Assembly (NCBI GenBank): GCA_937858455.1
Contig: CALLYN010000420.1
Coordinates: 1 to 10,130, forward strand
DNA length: 10,130 nucleotides
Direction: 5' to 3'
DNA from: an uncultured Kouleothrix sp.
GTDB taxonomy: Bacteria > Chloroflexota > Chloroflexia > Chloroflexales > Roseiflexaceae
Both the position numbers and the translations under genes were made by a program. Numbering within the stretch: the first letter of the stretch is position 1; every line of letters starts with the position of its first letter. The notes beneath the pieces were generated by a model. That model saw only the letters and a list, made by a program, of their open reading frames with translations. It had not been told where the DNA came from and searched no databases. Positions 1 through 9,299 of the stretch are shown one piece after another.

Positions 1-1196
1 GGCGGCCGATCCTCGCGCCGGCCGCCACGATCTTCGCGCGGCTCGGCTGGCGCGGCCAGCTCGCGCGGGCGATCCTCAAGCCGCATCGACAGGCTAATGC
101 GTTTGCTACCCGAGTCGATCTCGAGCACTCGCACCTTCACCGGGTCGCCGACTTTGACGGCATCCTCGACCTTCGCCACGCGCTGATCCGAGAGCTCGGA
201 GATGTGCACCAGGCCATCGCGCCCGACGCCGATATCGACAAACGCGCCGAACGGCGCCAGGCCGCTGATCGTCCCTTCGACGATCTGGCCTTTCTCGAGC
301 TGGGCCAGGCGCTGGCCGCGCTGGGCGCGGCGCAGGCTCAGGCTGATGCGCGTGCCCTCGGCGTCCACCTCAAGCACCTTAAACGTATAGGTCTGCCCGA
401 CCGTCACGGCATCCTCGGCCTTTTCGATCCGGCCTTCGGCCAGCTCGGAAACGTGCACCAGGCCATCCTTGCCCACGCCGATATCGACAAACACGCCAAA
501 CGGCGCAATGCCAGTAACCGTGCCCTCAACGTTATCGCCAACGCGCAGCGACGCCAAGGCCACACGATTCAGCTCGGGCTTTTTACGGCCACGCTCGCGC
601 GGCTGGTTGGCGCGCTCCTTCGAGCGCATGGTCAGGCTGATCCGCCGCCCATCCGGCTCGACGCTCTTGACGCGCACCTTCACGGTATCGCCGATCTGCA
701 CGATATCGCTTGGCGAGTCAATCCGCGTGTCGCTCATCTCGGAGATATGCACCAGGCCATCTCGGCCGACGCCGATATCGACGAAGATGCCATACAGCGC
801 GATCGACGTCACCCGGCCCTCGAGCTCCATACCAGCCTCGAGGTCTTTCACCCGGCGCGGCTTGCCGCTGTCTTCTTCAGGCAACGGCGTGTAGCTCGCG
901 CCTTCGCCGGCTGGCGCGTCGGCAGCCGGGGCTTCGGCCGCTTCGCCGTTTGCATCAACATCAGCCGGCACGCCAGCCGCCGGGGCTTCCTCGGCAGACA
1001 CGGCAACACCGGCCGGAGCCTCGGCTGCCGGGGCTTCCTCGGCTGCCGAGGCGGCAGCGGGCTGCGCTGCCGATTCTGGCTGCTGTACAACAGCCGACTG
1101 CTTTGACTCGTCTGGATCCGCAACCGCAGTCGCGGCGTTCACCAGATCGTCAAGCAGTTCGTTCCGCTCCTCGACGGGGCGCTCCTGATCGGTCAT
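1..1196 (-). CDS. S1 RNA-binding domain protein, ribosomal protein S1-like (3' end off the window)
   Basis: The frame is open from an ATG at 1196 to the left edge (398 codons, no stop reached). AGGAGG at 1207-1212 lies 10 nt before the ATG and fixes the start. Residues ~20-110 are an acidic, low-complexity Ala/Pro/Glu extension. Three S1 (OB-fold) repeats follow at about residues 119-191, 217-289 and 300-372. Each carries the hallmark G-x-F-V-D-I-G-V-G-(R/K)-D-G-L-V-H-(I/V)-S-E core and ends in R-I-S-L-(S/T)-(M/L)-R. A basic linker (~192-212) separates repeats 1 and 2. The tail from ~373 becomes rich in Arg, Glu and Asp, suggesting a charged disordered C-terminus. S1 repeats bind single-stranded RNA; proteins of this layout usually act with the 30S ribosome in mRNA binding. 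A different S1-type RNA-binding role is possible, because the number of repeats beyond the edge is unknown. It is transcribed alone from the promoter at 1237-1264. Confidence 0.93.
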   Translation of the reverse strand, partial: MTDQERPVEERNELLDDLVNAATAVADPDESKQSAVVQQPESAAQPAAASAAEEAPAAEAPAGVAVSAEEAPAAGVPADVDANGEAAEAPAADAPAGEGASYTPLPEEDSGKPRRVKDLEAGMELEGRVTSIALYGIFVDIGVGRDGLVHISEMSDTRIDSPSDIVQIGDTVKVRVKSVEPDGRRISLTMRSKERANQPRERGRKKPELNRVALASLRVGDNVEGTVTGIAPFGVFVDIGVGKDGLVHVSELAEGRIEKAEDAVTVGQTYTFKVLEVDAEGTRISLSLRRAQRGQRLAQLEKGQIVEGTISGLAPFGAFVDIGVGRDGLVHISELSDQRVAKVEDAVKVGDPVKVRVLEIDSGSKRISLSMRLEDRPRELAAPAEPREDRGGRREDRP

Positions 1197-1236
1197 GACC
1201 AACGATCCTCCTGATAGGTTTTCCAACAGCATCTGG

Positions 1237-1306: not shown

Positions 1307-2299
1307 CTAGCGGCTTAGCTCCGAGCGCACCAGCGCTGCCAAGCCGCCTTCCTGGATGTCTTCAAGCCGATGGTAGTGCCCCTTCAGGTGGAAAGCCAGC
1401 TGGCGCGCCAGACCGCGCTCGAAGATCGGGTGCTCGGTGTCGATTACCACCGAGCGGATCGACTGCGTTGCGACGAAATCGGCCAGCGCGTAGCACTCGG
1501 CTTGGGGCGGCAGATCGCCCATCGACACATTCGCCTGGCCGTCGGTCAGCAGCACCATGAGCGGAATAACTTCCGGGTCGCGCTTGCGCGCGCGCTCAAG
1601 CACCTCGAACCCCAGCAGCAGCCCGCGTGACAGCGGCGTCTTGCCGCCGGTCGGCATCGTCTGCAGGTATTTCTGCGCCAGCTCGATGCTGTTGGTTAAC
1701 GGCAGCAGCAGCGTCGCGTAATCGCGCTGGAACGACACCAGCCCAACTTGATCGCGGCGCTGGTAGGCATCGCGCAGCAGCGAGAGCACCGCCGCCTTGG
1801 TTGCGCGCATACGCTCTTCGGCCGCCATGCTCCAGCTGGCATCAACAACAAAGCAGACCGCATTGCGCGTTTTGCGCACCCGTACTTTCTGGCGCAGGTC
1901 GGTGCGCCGCAAGATCACCCGGCGCGGTGCACGTTCCGCTTTCGCCGGGTGCGCTTCACGGCGTTGGCGCTGATGTATCGCTGCTTCGCGCAGGGTCGCA
2001 TCGAGCGCGAGATCGGTCACTCGCTTGGCCGGGCGGCTCGAAATATACCTGCCGCTCTTGCGAGCGACTTTGGTCCGGCTGCGTTTGCCGGCCGCGCGGC
2101 GGGCCATGCGATCGCGCTGGCCTTCAAGCCGGCGGGGCTTGAACTGCGCGCTGGCCTTCACTACCTTCTCGCCGCTGCCCTTGTTCGTACTTGGCTGATT
2201 TCCATCGGCCATCTGAGCCGAGGCGCTCGGCGAGGTACCTTCCTGAGCATCGGCGTCGCGCGTCTCTTCGCCGCCGGCCTGCTGCTCAGTTATGGATGC
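1307..2299 (-). CDS. chlD: ChlD/CobT-type chelatase medium subunit, VWA part, reached by -1 frameshift from the ChlI frame
   Basis: This frame holds the C-terminal half of the medium subunit of a magnesium/cobalt chelatase. From the slip site (2299) it gives 330 residues. First comes an acidic linker with a run of Glu, Asp and Gln, then a very basic stretch (about 20-115 counted from the internal Met at 2212), then a von Willebrand factor A domain. The VWA metal-ion site is intact: D-A-S-W-S (D124, S126, S128), T192 in GGKTPLSRG, and D224 in LLTDGQAN. In this family the VWA domain docks on the AAA+ ring and couples ATP hydrolysis to metal insertion by the large CobN/ChlH subunit. No convincing Shine-Dalgarno precedes the internal ATG at 2212, and the linker before it stays open back to the slip site, so frameshifting explains expression better than a separate start. 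Joined to ChlI residues 1-365 it forms a protein of about 695 residues, a normal length for fused ChlD. Confidence 0.87.
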
Positions 2300-2317
2300 T
2301 TTTTTTTTACACCCTCC
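2243..2317 (-). promoter_or_regulatory. Programmed -1 ribosomal frameshift signal in the chelatase mRNA
   Basis: On the minus strand the zero frame reads GTA AAA AAA AAG CAT CCA TAA, with the run of nine A at 2300-2308 and the stop at 2290-2292. The heptamer A AAA AAG (2299-2305) is in the correct phase for tandem -1 slippage and is the type used by E. coli dnaX. A spacer of 9 nt (2290-2298) follows. Then comes a stem: CTGAGCA (2283-2289) pairs perfectly with TGCTCAG (2243-2249), and a further inner CGGCG/CGCCG pairing (2269-2273 with 2251-2255) is possible. A Shine-Dalgarno-like GGAGGG (2312-2317) lies 6 nt before the heptamer. After slippage the next codons read GCA TCC ATA ACT GAG and stay open into the VWA domain. 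Confidence 0.8.
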
Positions 2318-3393
2318 ACCGACGGCGTGTTTTCGGCTGCCTCTTCGCCGCTAGCCCGATCGAGGATCGCGTTCATACGCCCTTCGTCGAGCTTCACCTC
2401 GGTGAACGGCTGGCGGCGCATCCGGTGCGGCAGTGCCAGCTCGGCTGCCAGGCGAATATCGTCAAGCGTCAGGTTCACGCGGCTCGACCACGCCGCCAGC
2501 GTACGCGCTGTTTCGAGTATCGCCAGGTCGGCGCGGTGGCCATCGACGCCAAGCTCGAGCACCAGCGCGGCCACAGCGGCCATGTCGGTGCGCGCGATCT
2601 GCACAGCCGGCAGCAACGCACGCGCGGCGATGATCCGCTCGGCAAGCTTGTGCTCTTCGGCCTGCCACTCGCCGGCGAACCGATCCGGGTCGGCGTCATA
2701 GGCCATGCGCCGCTCGATCACCGCCACGCGGCCGGCGACATCGGCAATACCGCCGATCTCAACAACCAGGCCGAAGCGATCGAGCAGCTGCGGCCGCAGC
2801 TCGCCCTCTTCCGGGTTCATGGTGCCGACCAAAATAAACCGCGCGGGATGCGAGATGCTGATGCCCTCGCGCTCGACGGTATTCACGCCCATTGCGGCGG
2901 CGTCGAGCAGCAGATCGACGATATGATCATCGAGCAGGTTCACTTCGTCGACATACAGCAAGCCCCGGTTGGCCTGGGCGAGCAAGCCCGGCTCGAAACG
3001 GCGCTGGCCTTCGGTGAGGGCGTGCTCGAGATCGAGCGAGCCGACCACGCGATCTTCCGAGGCCGCCACCGGCAGCTCGATCAGCGGCGTCGGGCGCGTC
3101 ATGACCTGCAGCTCATCGCCAGCCTCAAAGCGCTCGCGGATCTCATCGGCCATGAGCGCCGGGTTCGTGGGCGAGCTATTGTATGGATCGCCAGCGACGA
3201 CATCAATCGGCGGCAGCAGCCGGGCCAGGCCGCGCACAGCTGTCGACTTGGCAGTGCCCTTTTCGCCGCGAATCAGCACGCCGCCAACACGGGGGTTCAC
3301 CGCGTTCAGCAGTAACGCGCGCTTCAAACGCTCTTGGCCTACCAGCGCGCTAAATGGATAAATTGGTCGTTCCCTGGCCATATACTTGCACAC
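2290..3393 (-). CDS. chlI: ChlI/BchI-like AAA+ chelatase ATPase subunit (zero-frame product)
   Basis: This is a complete 367-residue AAA+ ATPase of the magnesium chelatase I family, which assembles into a hexameric ring and drives metal insertion into tetrapyrroles. Walker A is GEKGTAKST (residues 43-51), Walker B is [10 protein letters not shown] (145-154), sensor 1 lies in [10 protein letters not shown] (around 192), an arginine finger is in LLDRFGL (R206) and sensor 2 is in GHRADLA (R287). All appear intact. The start chosen is GTG at 3393, because GGAG lies 8 nt upstream; the ATG at 3381 is an alternative lacking such spacing. The stop follows an A9 run after K365, and a -1 slip there extends the protein into the VWA domain. 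A working ATPase site is expected if the short product serves as the I subunit. No gene for a large subunit (ChlH or CobN) is in the window, so the metal (Co or Mg) cannot be decided here. Confidence 0.92.
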
Positions 3394-6078: not shown

Positions 6079-7383
6079 ATGGGAACGCGCAACTCACGGC
6101 TTGGCGGGTTCTACCAGCTCAACCCATTCGAGCGGCTTCAGGCGGTGAAGTCGTTTGATGGGCTGAACGACGAAGACCTGCGCCAGCTCCACGGCGGCAA
6201 TGGCGCCTTGACCGTTGAGCGCGCTGACAAGATGATCGAGAATGTCGTAGGAACATTTAACCTACCGCTCGGCATCGCCACGAACTTTCAAATCAACGGC
6301 CGCGACGTGCTCGTGCCGATGGTTGTGGAAGAGCCCTCGATCGTCGCCGGGGCGAGCTACGCTGCCAAGCTCGTACGCGAAGGCGGCGGCTTTCAGACCA
6401 GCTCAACCGACCCAGTGATGATCGGGCAGATTCAGCTCGTAAACATTGCCGACCCCGGGCGCGCGCGCTTTGATATTCTTGCGCACCGCGAGGAGCTTCT
6501 CGCGCTGGCGAACCGCCAGAGCAACAGCTTGCTGGCGCTGGGCGGCGGCGCGAAGGACATCGAGGTGCGGGTGTTCGACTCAAGCCCGATGGGGCCAATG
6601 CTGGTGGTACACCTGCTGATCGACTGCCGCGACGCGATGGGCGCGAATGCGATCAACACGATGGCCGAAGCGGTAGCCCCGCTGCTCGAGCAGATCAGCG
6701 GCGGCCGCGCGTACCTGCGCATTCTGTCGAATCTGAGCGATCGGCGGCTGGCGCGGGCGCGAGCGGTGGTGCCGGCACGGGCACTTGAGCGCGACGGTAT
6801 TCCAGGCGACGAGGTTGTCGAAGGGATTTTATGGGCCTATTCGTTTGCGGCGATTGATCCATACCGGGCGACGACGCATAACAAAGGCATCTTGAACGGC
6901 ATCGACCCGGTGCTGATCGCCACCGGCAACGACTGGCGCGCAGTCGAAGCCGGCGCGCACGCCTACGCAGCGCGGAGCGGCCAGTATACTTCGCTGACCG
7001 TGTGGGAGCGCGACGCGCACGGCAACTTAGTCGGCACACTCGAAATGCCTCTGGCGATCGGGATCGTCGGCGGCGCGACCAAAGTGCACCCGGCGGCGCA
7101 AGCGGCGCTGAAGCTGCTGAATGTCAAAAGCGCGAGCGAGCTGGCCGAGGTCTGCGCGTGCGCCGGGCTGGCCTCGAACCTTGCGGCCATGCGCGCGCTC
7201 GCTACCGAGGGCATCCAGCGCGGGCATATGGGCCTGCACGCTCGGCAGGTGGCGATGGCAGCGGGCGCGCACGGCGCCGAAATCGACGAGATCGCGCGGC
7301 GCATGGTTGAAGAGCGGCAGATCAAACCAGCGCGCGCTGCACTGCTGCTGGCCGAGCTGCGCACGGTGCCAAACAGCAATTAA
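6079..7383 (+). CDS. mvaA: Class II hydroxymethylglutaryl-CoA reductase
   Basis: The product (434 aa) interconverts HMG-CoA and mevalonate with a nicotinamide cofactor, the committing step of the mevalonate route when run reductively. Length and motifs fit the bacterial class II family (Pseudomonas mevalonii type, ~428 aa). These include [17 protein letters not shown] (54-70), MVVEEPS with catalytic Glu85, [11 protein letters not shown] (185-195), THNKG with Lys269, TGNDWRAVE with Asp285, and GLHARQVA with the C-terminal catalytic His387. All four catalytic residues are present. Class II enzymes often favour NADH, but the cofactor is not decided by what I can see. Many class II enzymes degrade mevalonate; here the gene is followed by HMG-CoA synthase and a thiolase, which points to biosynthesis of isoprenoids. 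AGAGG lies 11 nt before the ATG. A terminator separates it from the synthase. Confidence 0.96.
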
Positions 7384-7419
7384 GCCGTTTTCGTAACTAT
7401 GACTATGGATGCTGCGACG

Positions 7420-7455
7420 GGGCGAGCAACCGGCGTGTTGCTCGCCCTTGTTTTG
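7420..7455 (+). terminator. Intrinsic terminator between HMG-CoA reductase and HMG-CoA synthase
   Basis: GGGCGAGCAA (7420-7429) and TTGCTCGCCC (7438-7447) form a perfect 10-bp stem with an 8-nt loop, followed by TTGTTTTG. It sits 36 nt after the reductase stop and 40 nt before the synthase start. I see no strong promoter between it and the synthase, so the synthase and thiolase may depend on readthrough or on a weak promoter in this short gap. Confidence 0.8.
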
Positions 7456-7487
7456 CCGCGCGCTGAATACGATTAGGAGGAGCTCTG

Positions 7488-8537
7488 ATGATGCGCCCCA
7501 GCAAGCCGGTTGGCATCGTAGGGTATGGTGCCTATATACCGCGCTACCGCATCGCCGCGCGAGAAATCGCGCGGATCTGGACCGACGGCCAGGGTGGCGT
7601 CCCCGTCGACGCGAAGAGCGTGCCCGGCCCCGACGAAGACACGATCACAATGTCGGTCGAGGCAGCGCGCAACGCGCTTGTGCGCGCCTCGCTGCGCGCC
7701 GAGCAACTTTCGGCGGTTTGGGTCGGCAGCGAAAGCCACCCTTACTCGGTCAAGCCCTCGGGCACCGTCGTGGCCGAGGCGCTTGGCGCGACGCCGTGGG
7801 TGAGCACGGCCGACTGGGAATTTGCGTGCAAGGCCGGCTCGGAGGCGCTGACCGCCAGCATGGGTATGGTTGGCAGCGGTATGGCCGAGTATGTTCTGGC
7901 GGTCGGCGCGGATACCGCGCAGGGCCGGCCCGGCGACGCGCTCGAGTACACCGCCGCAGCCGGCGCCGCCGCGCTGCTGGTTGGGCCGGCCGAGCAGGCG
8001 CTGGCGACGATCGAGGCAACCTGCTCGTATGTGCAAGACACGCCCGACTTCTTCCGGCGCGCCGACCGGGCCTACCCGGTGCATGGCAACCGCTTCACCG
8101 GCGAACCGGCCTACTTTGGCCAGATCCGCCATGCCGCGACGCACCTGCTGGAGCAGCTTGGCACCAAAGCTTCCGACTACACCTACGCCGTTTTTCACCA
8201 GCCGAACGCGCGCTTTCCGCAGACCGTCGGCAAGCAGCTTGGCTTCACGCCCGAGCAGATGAATCCGGGGTGGCTTTCGCCGAAGATTGGCAACACCTAT
8301 TCGGCGGCGGCGCTGCTGGGGCTATGCGCGATCTTCGACATCGCCAAGCCCGGCGACACGATTTTCATGACCTCGTATGGCTCGGGCTCGGGCTCGGATG
8401 CCTACGCGCTGCGCGTCACCGAGGCGATCGACGAGCGGCGCGCGCGCGCGCCGCTGACGGCTGCGTACCTGGCCCGCGAGAAATTCGTCGACTACGCGAT
8501 CTATGCCAAGTGGCGCGGCAAATTAGTGATGAGCTAA
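7488..8537 (+). CDS. Archaeal-type hydroxymethylglutaryl-CoA synthase
   Basis: The product (349 aa) condenses acetyl-CoA with acetoacetyl-CoA to HMG-CoA. Length and sequence match the short archaeal/Chloroflexota branch of the family, not the ~390-aa MvaS of Firmicutes. Hallmarks are VGYGAYIPRYRI (11-22), KSVPGPDEDT (43-52), VGSESHPYSVKPS (79-91; Glu82), EFACKAG with nucleophile Cys114, GADTAQGRPGDALEYTAAAG (140-159), VFHQPN with His237, and SYGSGSGSDAY near 296-306. The catalytic Glu-Cys-His triad is complete. AGGAGG (7475-7480) lies 7 nt before the first of two successive ATG codons. The thiolase follows after 24 nt, as in archaea, where synthase, thiolase and a DUF35 protein form one complex that passes acetoacetyl-CoA directly. 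The DUF35 gene expected next is missing because of the break near 9236. Confidence 0.96.
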   Translation: MMRPSKPVGIVGYGAYIPRYRIAAREIARIWTDGQGGVPVDAKSVPGPDEDTITMSVEAARNALVRASLRAEQLSAVWVGSESHPYSVKPSGTVVAEALGATPWVSTADWEFACKAGSEALTASMGMVGSGMAEYVLAVGADTAQGRPGDALEYTAAAGAAALLVGPAEQALATIEATCSYVQDTPDFFRRADRAYPVHGNRFTGEPAYFGQIRHAATHLLEQLGTKASDYTYAVFHQPNARFPQTVGKQLGFTPEQMNPGWLSPKIGNTYSAAALLGLCAIFDIAKPGDTIFMTSYGSGSGSDAYALRVTEAIDERRARAPLTAAYLAREKFVDYAIYAKWRGKLVMS

Positions 8538-8561: not shown

Positions 8562-9299
8562 ATGCAACCTGTGTATATTGCCGGCGTGGGGCAGACCGCG
8601 GTAGCCGAGCATTGGGAGCGCACAGCCGGCGCGCTCGCCGCCGAGGCGCTTAGCGCCGCGCTCGGGCCGATCGCCAAGGAGCGCATCCAGGCGCTGTATG
8701 TCGCCAATGCGCTCGGAGGCGCGCTGCAGATCCAGGGCCAGTTTGGCGCTGCGGTGGCATCGGCTGTGGGGCTGGCTGGTGTCGAGGCGGCGGCGTTTGA
8801 TGCGGCAGGCGCCTCGGGCGGTGTGGCGCTGCGCCAGGCCTACCTGGCGGTAGGCAGCGGCGCGTACGACCTCGTGGCGGTTGTTGGCGTTGAGAAAGTG
8901 ACCGATGTGCTCGACGCGCGGCTGGAGGCCGGTGCGGCGCTCGCCGGCGACGCCGATTGGGAGGTGGTGCACGGCACCACGCTGACGGCGCAGTGGGGGC
9001 TGCTGATGCGGCGCTATATGCACCAATACGGTTACGACGCCATCGACTTCGCGCCCTTCCCGGTGAACGCGCATGCAAACGGCGCGGCCAATCGCCAAGC
9101 GCTCTACCGCTTCCCGATCTCGATCGACAAAGTGCGCGCCGCCGGAACGGTCGCCGACCCGCTGAGCCTGCTCGACAGCGCGACCGCGGCCGACGGCGCG
9201 GCGGCGGTGCTGGTAGCCAGCGAGCGCCTGGCTTTTGGCCTGCTCGCGCTGCTTGAGAAACAGCGCGAAGTCCAGTACCTCGGCGAGTTGCTCGCTTGA
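8562..9299 (+). CDS. Acetoacetyl-CoA thiolase-like protein, 3' truncated at about 9236 and lacking the nucleophilic Cys
   Basis: Residues 1-225 are a thiolase-fold protein of the kind that partners archaeal-type HMG-CoA synthase: VYIAGVGQT (4-12), the LRQAYLAVGSGAYD helix region (90-103), VVGVEKVTD (107-115), NAHANGAANRQ (169-179) and the DGAAAVLVASERLAF stretch (211-225). Where the family has E-A-A-C-A-S-G-G, this protein reads D-A-A-G-A-S-G-G, so Gly83 stands in place of the acyl-accepting Cys. Family members are about 380-390 aa; this frame ends at 245, and residues 226-245 are read from antisense antitoxin DNA. The C-terminal catalytic motifs (GHPxGATG and the second Cys) are therefore absent. 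GGAG lies 7 nt before the ATG, and the spacing to the synthase implies co-transcription. As it stands it cannot be a standard working thiolase. Confidence 0.88.
   Translation: MQPVYIAGVGQTAVAEHWERTAGALAAEALSAALGPIAKERIQALYVANALGGALQIQGQFGAAVASAVGLAGVEAAAFDAAGASGGVALRQAYLAVGSGAYDLVAVVGVEKVTDVLDARLEAGAALAGDADWEVVHGTTLTAQWGLLMRRYMHQYGYDAIDFAPFPVNAHANGAANRQALYRFPISIDKVRAAGTVADPLSLLDSATAADGAAAVLVASERLAFGLLALLEKQREVQYLGELLA

Follow-up and report, generated by a model that had tools for sequence, protein, structure and literature searches.

The window analysed here, meaning the whole 10,130-nucleotide (nt) stretch, which is one complete contig (CALLYN010000420.1) of a fragmented uncultured Kouleothrix genome (1123 contigs, 71.5% complete), carries on its minus strand a chelatase gene whose AAA+ and VWA parts lie in two reading frames joined at a run of nine adenines (A9). 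Comparison with related genes supports the original prediction that this is one gene with two products of 367 and about 695 amino acids (aa) sharing an N-terminus, and that it belongs to the published fs-chlD group as a Chloroflexota representative, with a slip site under selection. The best explanation appears to be slippage of RNA polymerase at runs of nine or ten adenines (A9/A10), by which a single chelatase gene would yield both products; judged from sequence, we give this reading a probability of roughly 0.6.

According to this explanation, one transcription unit would encode two chelatase subunits. Slippage on the A9 run would create a mixture, in which the unslipped reading stops at once to give an AAA+ small subunit of about 363 aa, and a −1 shift gives a medium subunit of about 691 aa with the same N-terminus followed by the linker and VWA domain. 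A9/A10 sites would slip mainly through gain or loss of A's by the polymerase, as in Thermus dnaX, and because such slippage reaches all three frames, both unused frames would be expected to carry an early stop. In split relatives with seven or eight adenines (A7/A8), such as Herpetosiphon, it would instead be the ribosome that shifts by −1 on AAA AAA, with the help of an RNA structure. The two proteins would presumably act together as the AAA+ motor in a cobaltochelatase of CobN type. The features of the locus, all on the minus strand, are as follows.

2290 to 3393, minus strand: 0-frame AAA+ open reading frame (ORF), small-subunit-like (ChlI/BchI/CobS type), 367 aa from the GTG at 3393 or 363 aa from the in-frame ATG at 3381
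2317 to 2313, minus strand: Shine-Dalgarno (SD)-like GGAGG upstream of the run
2308 to 2300, minus strand: A9 run, the putative slip site, with the heptamer A AAA AAG at 2305 to 2299
2292 to 2290, minus strand: 0-frame stop TAA, two codons past the slip, which would terminate the small product
2243 to 2289, minus strand: hairpin with a 7-bp outer stem, CTGAGCA (2289 to 2283) paired with TGCTCAG (2249 to 2243), and inner pairs
2288 to 2286, minus strand: stop TGA of the third (+1) frame, which shuts the remaining frame
1307 to 2299, minus strand: D-specific coding part in the −1 frame (linker, basic region and VWA domain), ending at TAG 1309 to 1307
1535 to 1855, minus strand: VWA domain PF13519, residues 120 to 226 of the ORF starting at 2212

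The minus-strand sequence confirmed the predicted layout of the junction. The AAA+ ORF ends GTA AAA AAA AAG CAT CCA TAA, with the stop beginning at the seventh nucleotide past the heptamer in the A9 run, and the −1 frame, last closed upstream by a stop 45 nt before the run, is open through the slip site and VWA domain to TAG 1309 to 1307. Joining the frames at the slip gives a product of 695 aa from the GTG or 691 aa from the ATG. After the run, the stops of the unused frames stand at index +2 and +4. The hairpin, whose 7-bp stem had been predicted, begins 9 nt past the heptamer and has a folding z score of −2.6, equal stability being reached in 1 of 200 shuffles. The third-frame TGA and the upstream GGAGG had no place in the original prediction.

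Profile searches are consistent with the two parts belonging to one protein family. The AAA+ part alone matches positions 1–340 of TIGR02442 (putative cobaltochelatase) and the VWA part positions 375–641, while the spliced 691-aa product aligns over all 641 positions. Its score of 766.9 bits stays 12.5 bits below the curated cut-off of 779.45, which the fused relatives L054 (799.8 bits) and L021 (789.1 bits) pass. Against TIGR02030 the AAA+ part scored 443.9 bits, short of the cut-off of 466.95. As a separate observation, a four-cysteine motif (CPYSCPPD..LC..C) follows the Walker A region in 20 of 24 genes of the window's family (f1), in 40/40 of family f2 and in 8/8 of f3; the five f4 genes are without its second cysteine. 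It is missing from the window gene, L023 and L028, which make one starred clade, and from L014, a cut sequence without most of its N-terminus.

Overlap of the two ORFs might be taken to mean that translation of the VWA part begins separately, by internal initiation or coupling. The earliest possible start in its frame after the upstream stop is ATG 2212, and, in agreement with the original prediction, no SD-like motif was seen by eye in the 20 nt preceding it. An SD-like motif with a D-frame start before the conserved VWA region was found in 1 of 86 split genes (L064), as against 9.7% of control stretches, and a protein started there would miss the AAA+ part that the TIGR02442 and ChlD models include. 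We consider this reading highly improbable.

The frame break recurs among relatives. A search of 158 genomes of the class gave matches to the VWA part in 84; all listed loci with E ≤ 1.3e-78 (77, or 78 with the window) were taken as the class set, outside which lie a contig-cut copy in genome G026 (1.2e-49) and more distant, paralogue-like matches. Within the set 42 genes are split and 36 fused, and 39 of the 42 need a −1 shift at a run of seven to ten adenines, the other three (L036, L060 and L083) being set aside for further frame breaks. A run of at least seven adenines occupies the junction in 77/78 loci, the window included; the exception, L081, was left out of the tree count and run statistics. 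The window's family comprises 23 split genes and one fused. Its sister family f2 is mostly one continuous ORF (34 fused, 6 split), f3 has eight split genes, all A7, f4 five, all A10, and f6 a single fused gene with no run. In a tree built on the domains, with the linker largely excluded, f1 to f4 each come out as a starred group, and parsimony requires at least five changes between the split and fused states over 74 loci; the tree was made by a quick method and many of its forks are open.

This distribution leaves little room for an assembly or sequencing error, or for a decaying gene. The genome is fragmented and the site is a homopolymer; 22 further members of the window's family, however, one from a one-contig genome (L010 in G064), show the identical break at that run, and run and stops look selected, making an artefact or decay highly improbable. 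A switch of phase variation at the DNA level, for which the ready mutation of long A runs and the variation of frame between relatives might speak, is about equally improbable. Frames do differ even within a genus (L059 split and L080 fused in g11; L171 fused and L182 requiring +1 in g129), but the best sampled genera do not vary in state (g9, 11/11 split; g7, 6/6 split; g12, 8/8 fused), and stops stand directly after the run in either state.

The fused genes indicate that the site is maintained. The original prediction had named relatives with a continuous ORF and no slippery site as evidence that would count against it. Continuous ORFs do exist in the order; all 35 found (35 of the 36 fused class-set genes) keep a run of eight to ten adenines at the same place together with a hidden −1 stop, and fused genes without any run occur farther from the window than its order. 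The −1 stop falls within five codons of the run in 35/35 and within one codon in 31/35, compared with 24.6% and 8.7%, respectively, at control positions in the same genes, and synonymous resampling gives an expectation of 9.0 of 35 for the hidden stop; all three stop codons are used. Furthermore, A is the last base of the codon preceding the AAA block in 32 of the 35 (GTA 22, CTA 5, CAA 4 and ATA 1; exceptions L021, L056 and L080), whereas A-ending synonyms average 9% gene-wide in these genes, which argues for selection on the DNA rather than on the protein. This count replaced an initial codon test (32/32 run-start codons ending in A), rejected as true by construction. The run itself terminates in AAG, AAC, AAT or AAA codons, and DNA rather than peptide seems to be conserved there. 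Taken across the order, the comparison supports selection on the run and its nearby stops, and both products stay encoded whichever is in frame.

The survey was extended to 400 genomes of the phylum (E up to 1e-45), of which at least 154 matched. Sixty outer loci were fetched, of which 52 are nearer matches beyond the order and 8 were picked among those farther away. Duplicate contigs (L084, L107, L109 and L160), L214 (frame break), L219 (no hit), L221 (split +1, no run) and seven loci with an odd match order (L097, L098, L100, L101, L102, L130 and L158) were set aside. The outer run-bearing set of 56 loci, which includes the five named loci L085–L089 and excludes L214, contains 46 genes split by −1, one split by +1 (L182) and nine fused. 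In these fused genes the −1 stop lies two to nine codons downstream, and the pattern is weaker than within the order. A particularly close comparison comes from family f19, in which L171 and L182 of one genus and L172 of the same family share a near-identical site, gaggcgcA9tcataactga in L171, with A10 in L182 and A10 followed by g in L172; their DNA frames are 0, +1 and −1. In 70 other fused genes, most of them from actinomycetes and the rest from archaea, proteobacteria and distant Chloroflexota, the linker has no run of six A's, and the same holds for seven further fused genes.

The mechanism was examined over 130 run-bearing genes, relatives among them not being independent. The run holds at least nine adenines in 109/130. 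With A9/A10 runs the third frame is closed within eight codons in 98 of 108 genes (65/69 split and 33/39 fused), as compared with linker controls of 0.34 for the frame relevant to split genes and 0.17 for that relevant to fused ones; taken by sequence cluster, mean closure is 0.89 over 37 clusters, of which 31 are complete. By contrast, split A7/A8 genes close it in 4 of 16, these 16 amounting to only three sequence clusters. The downstream fold differs in parallel, with mean z scores of −0.09 for split A9/A10 genes, +0.27 for fused A9/A10 genes and −1.99 for split A7/A8 genes. At the A7 site of L067 (genome G050), a very stable hairpin, CCCCGTCGG...CCGACGGGG, follows immediately after the stop (z about −6).

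The original prediction read the site as a programmed −1 shift by the ribosome on A AAA AAG, in which case A9 would be simply a strong site and the third-frame stops by-products; we regard this as possible at clearly less than even odds. In its favour, all but one of the 86 run-bearing split genes need −1 (85/86; L036, L060, L083 and L214 set aside), and the heptamer sits in the right frame in the window, which has its stem just as the split A7/A8 sites have downstream structure. Moreover, chlD recoding is called ribosomal in PMC9227772. The ribosomal mechanism is nevertheless doubtful because A9/A10 genes close both unused frames. On average they have no downstream structure, and the run is held at 9–10 adenines although seven suffice. 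Shift direction varies between close relatives (0, +1 and −1), and an unconserved direction is taken in PMC3711429 as a sign of transcriptional realignment. A tRNA-Lys(CUU) pattern, whose presence also speaks against ribosomal shifting, was found in 47/48 genomes, the sole miss being the incomplete genome of the window.

Candidate stimulators did not generalize. Alignment of orthologues, proposed as a check, showed the run and nearby stops recurring in many genera and the stem unconserved: over the 23 split genes of the window's family, window included, the mean z is +0.26, contrary to the expectation of a conserved component, and besides the window only L013 lies below −2. A downstream stem was therefore rejected as a general stimulator of A9/A10 genes, whose mean z is near 0. 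No shared helix downstream of the run was evident by eye in an alignment of six relatives, no covariation test having been run. An SD-like 5-mer (any of those tested) precedes the run in 20/109 A9/A10 genes; the window has its GGAGG there, but an upstream SD does not seem to be general.

Several observations weigh against polymerase slippage as the account of the A9/A10 sites. A AAA AAG is compatible with slippage by the ribosome as well, and the window combines it with a stem (z −2.6) and the upstream GGAGG; belonging to the A9 class yet having a hairpin of its own, it may still use ribosomal slippage. Third-frame closure fails in 10 of the 108 A9/A10 genes (among them L029, L030, L035, L041, L080 and L185), and the split A7/A8 class consists of related, non-independent sequences. 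Nor do the five fused A7/A8 genes fit the pattern of that class cleanly: third-frame closure is seen in one, and their mean z is −0.09, L087 alone being clearly structured (−3.2). The tRNA-Lys(CUU) pattern was also tried as a discriminator between A7 and A9 sites and rejected, as it occurs in both classes.

If RNA polymerase does slip at the A9/A10 runs, the gene in Chloroflexota would be frame-agnostic, small insertions and deletions having repeatedly switched the in-frame subunit with neither product lost; the fused genes of Chloroflexaceae and some Anaerolineae would then also make a small subunit by way of the hidden −1 stop, and two mechanisms would operate in one family. We hold this wider proposal to be about evenly balanced. 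Genome context bears on the two-product reading. Among 58 genomes, a separate small-subunit-like (ChlI-like) gene is adjacent in 9/14 with a fused gene without run, as against 0/44 with a run-bearing gene (Fisher p 2e-7, a value that ignores relatedness), and G327 (fused, A9) has no other small-subunit match of at least 50% identity. On the opposite side, such matches occur elsewhere in 9 of the 44 run-bearing genomes, and in G192, G163, G087 and G216 the fused gene is without a run and no stand-alone small subunit accompanies it. The window genome itself has a separate BchI-like gene (C775, 53% identity), as do phototroph-type relatives, so that in those genomes a need for the small subunit from the two-product gene is not established. 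The cobalt assignment is likewise qualified. CobN/ChlH-type (PF02514) matches were found in 72 of the 82 order genomes searched; in G050, G053 and G056, which are 96–100% complete and carry the two-product gene, no PF02514 match was found. Presence of a large subunit was therefore set aside as proof of cobalt function, and because of these three genomes the gene may have a role beyond cobalt insertion.

That one chlD gene can give two products is already in the literature, Chloroflexi included, and the window is a further member. PMC3711429 places 23 genes frameshifted by −1 in a magnesium chelatase group that includes Herpetosiphon, and gives shifting in E. coli reporters of such sites as 63% (A11), 40% (A9) and 10% (A7); several Anaerolineaceae are named as fs-chlD carriers in PMC9227772, and fs-chlD is also reviewed in PMC5009743. 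As in fs-chlD (Antonov 2013, 2020; Kuznetsov 2022), where chlD is split by −1 at an A-rich site and gives two subunits per mRNA, the window has AAA+ and VWA parts in two frames joined at an A-rich site conserved in relatives. Shifted and unshifted genes are stated in the published work not to group together, whereas here split and fused genes intermingle and the order's fused ones keep the site. Among the titles and abstracts searched, none dealt with a slip site retained in fused chlD genes; the search did not extend to the text of Antonov 2020 or to supplements, and an earlier mention is possible. The dnaX gene of Thermus thermophilus resembles the window in its run of nine, its early stops in both nonzero frames and its short and long products (PMC5009743), but it encodes another protein, the long product of the window would be the shifted one, and slippage is proposed here from sequence comparison. 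Escherichia coli dnaX shares A AAA AAG with the window, and fused relatives resemble it in having a long 0-frame product and a short −1 product ending about one codon later; unlike it, A9/A10 genes are without a conserved stem or SD, and the polarity of the window is opposite. That a few bacteria have a dnaX with the polarity reversed is noted in PMC5009743.

If the proposal is right, genes annotated as single-frame ChlD or cobaltochelatase have an unannotated second product, and tallies of genomes without a small subunit would be wrong. The case would also show a recoding signal outliving changes of frame, and provide a natural series, A7 with structure and A9/A10 without, that separates ribosomal from polymerase slippage. 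Cultured relatives in Herpetosiphon, Chloroploca and Chloroflexus would make these readings testable.

Elsewhere in the window, an ORF encoding three S1 RNA-binding domains behind a long Ala/Pro/Glu-rich N-terminus (3 to 1232, minus strand) lies directly downstream of the chelatase gene. The thiolase-like ORF at 8562 to 9299 (plus strand) matches just the first ~224 of about 389 model positions, and its 3′ end overlaps a minus-strand ORF (9356 to 8523) with no Pfam match, which may reflect a rearrangement, a broken frame or a contig join. It follows adjoining genes for HMG-CoA reductase and HMG-CoA synthase (6079 to 8537, plus strand), the three forming part of a mevalonate-type route.
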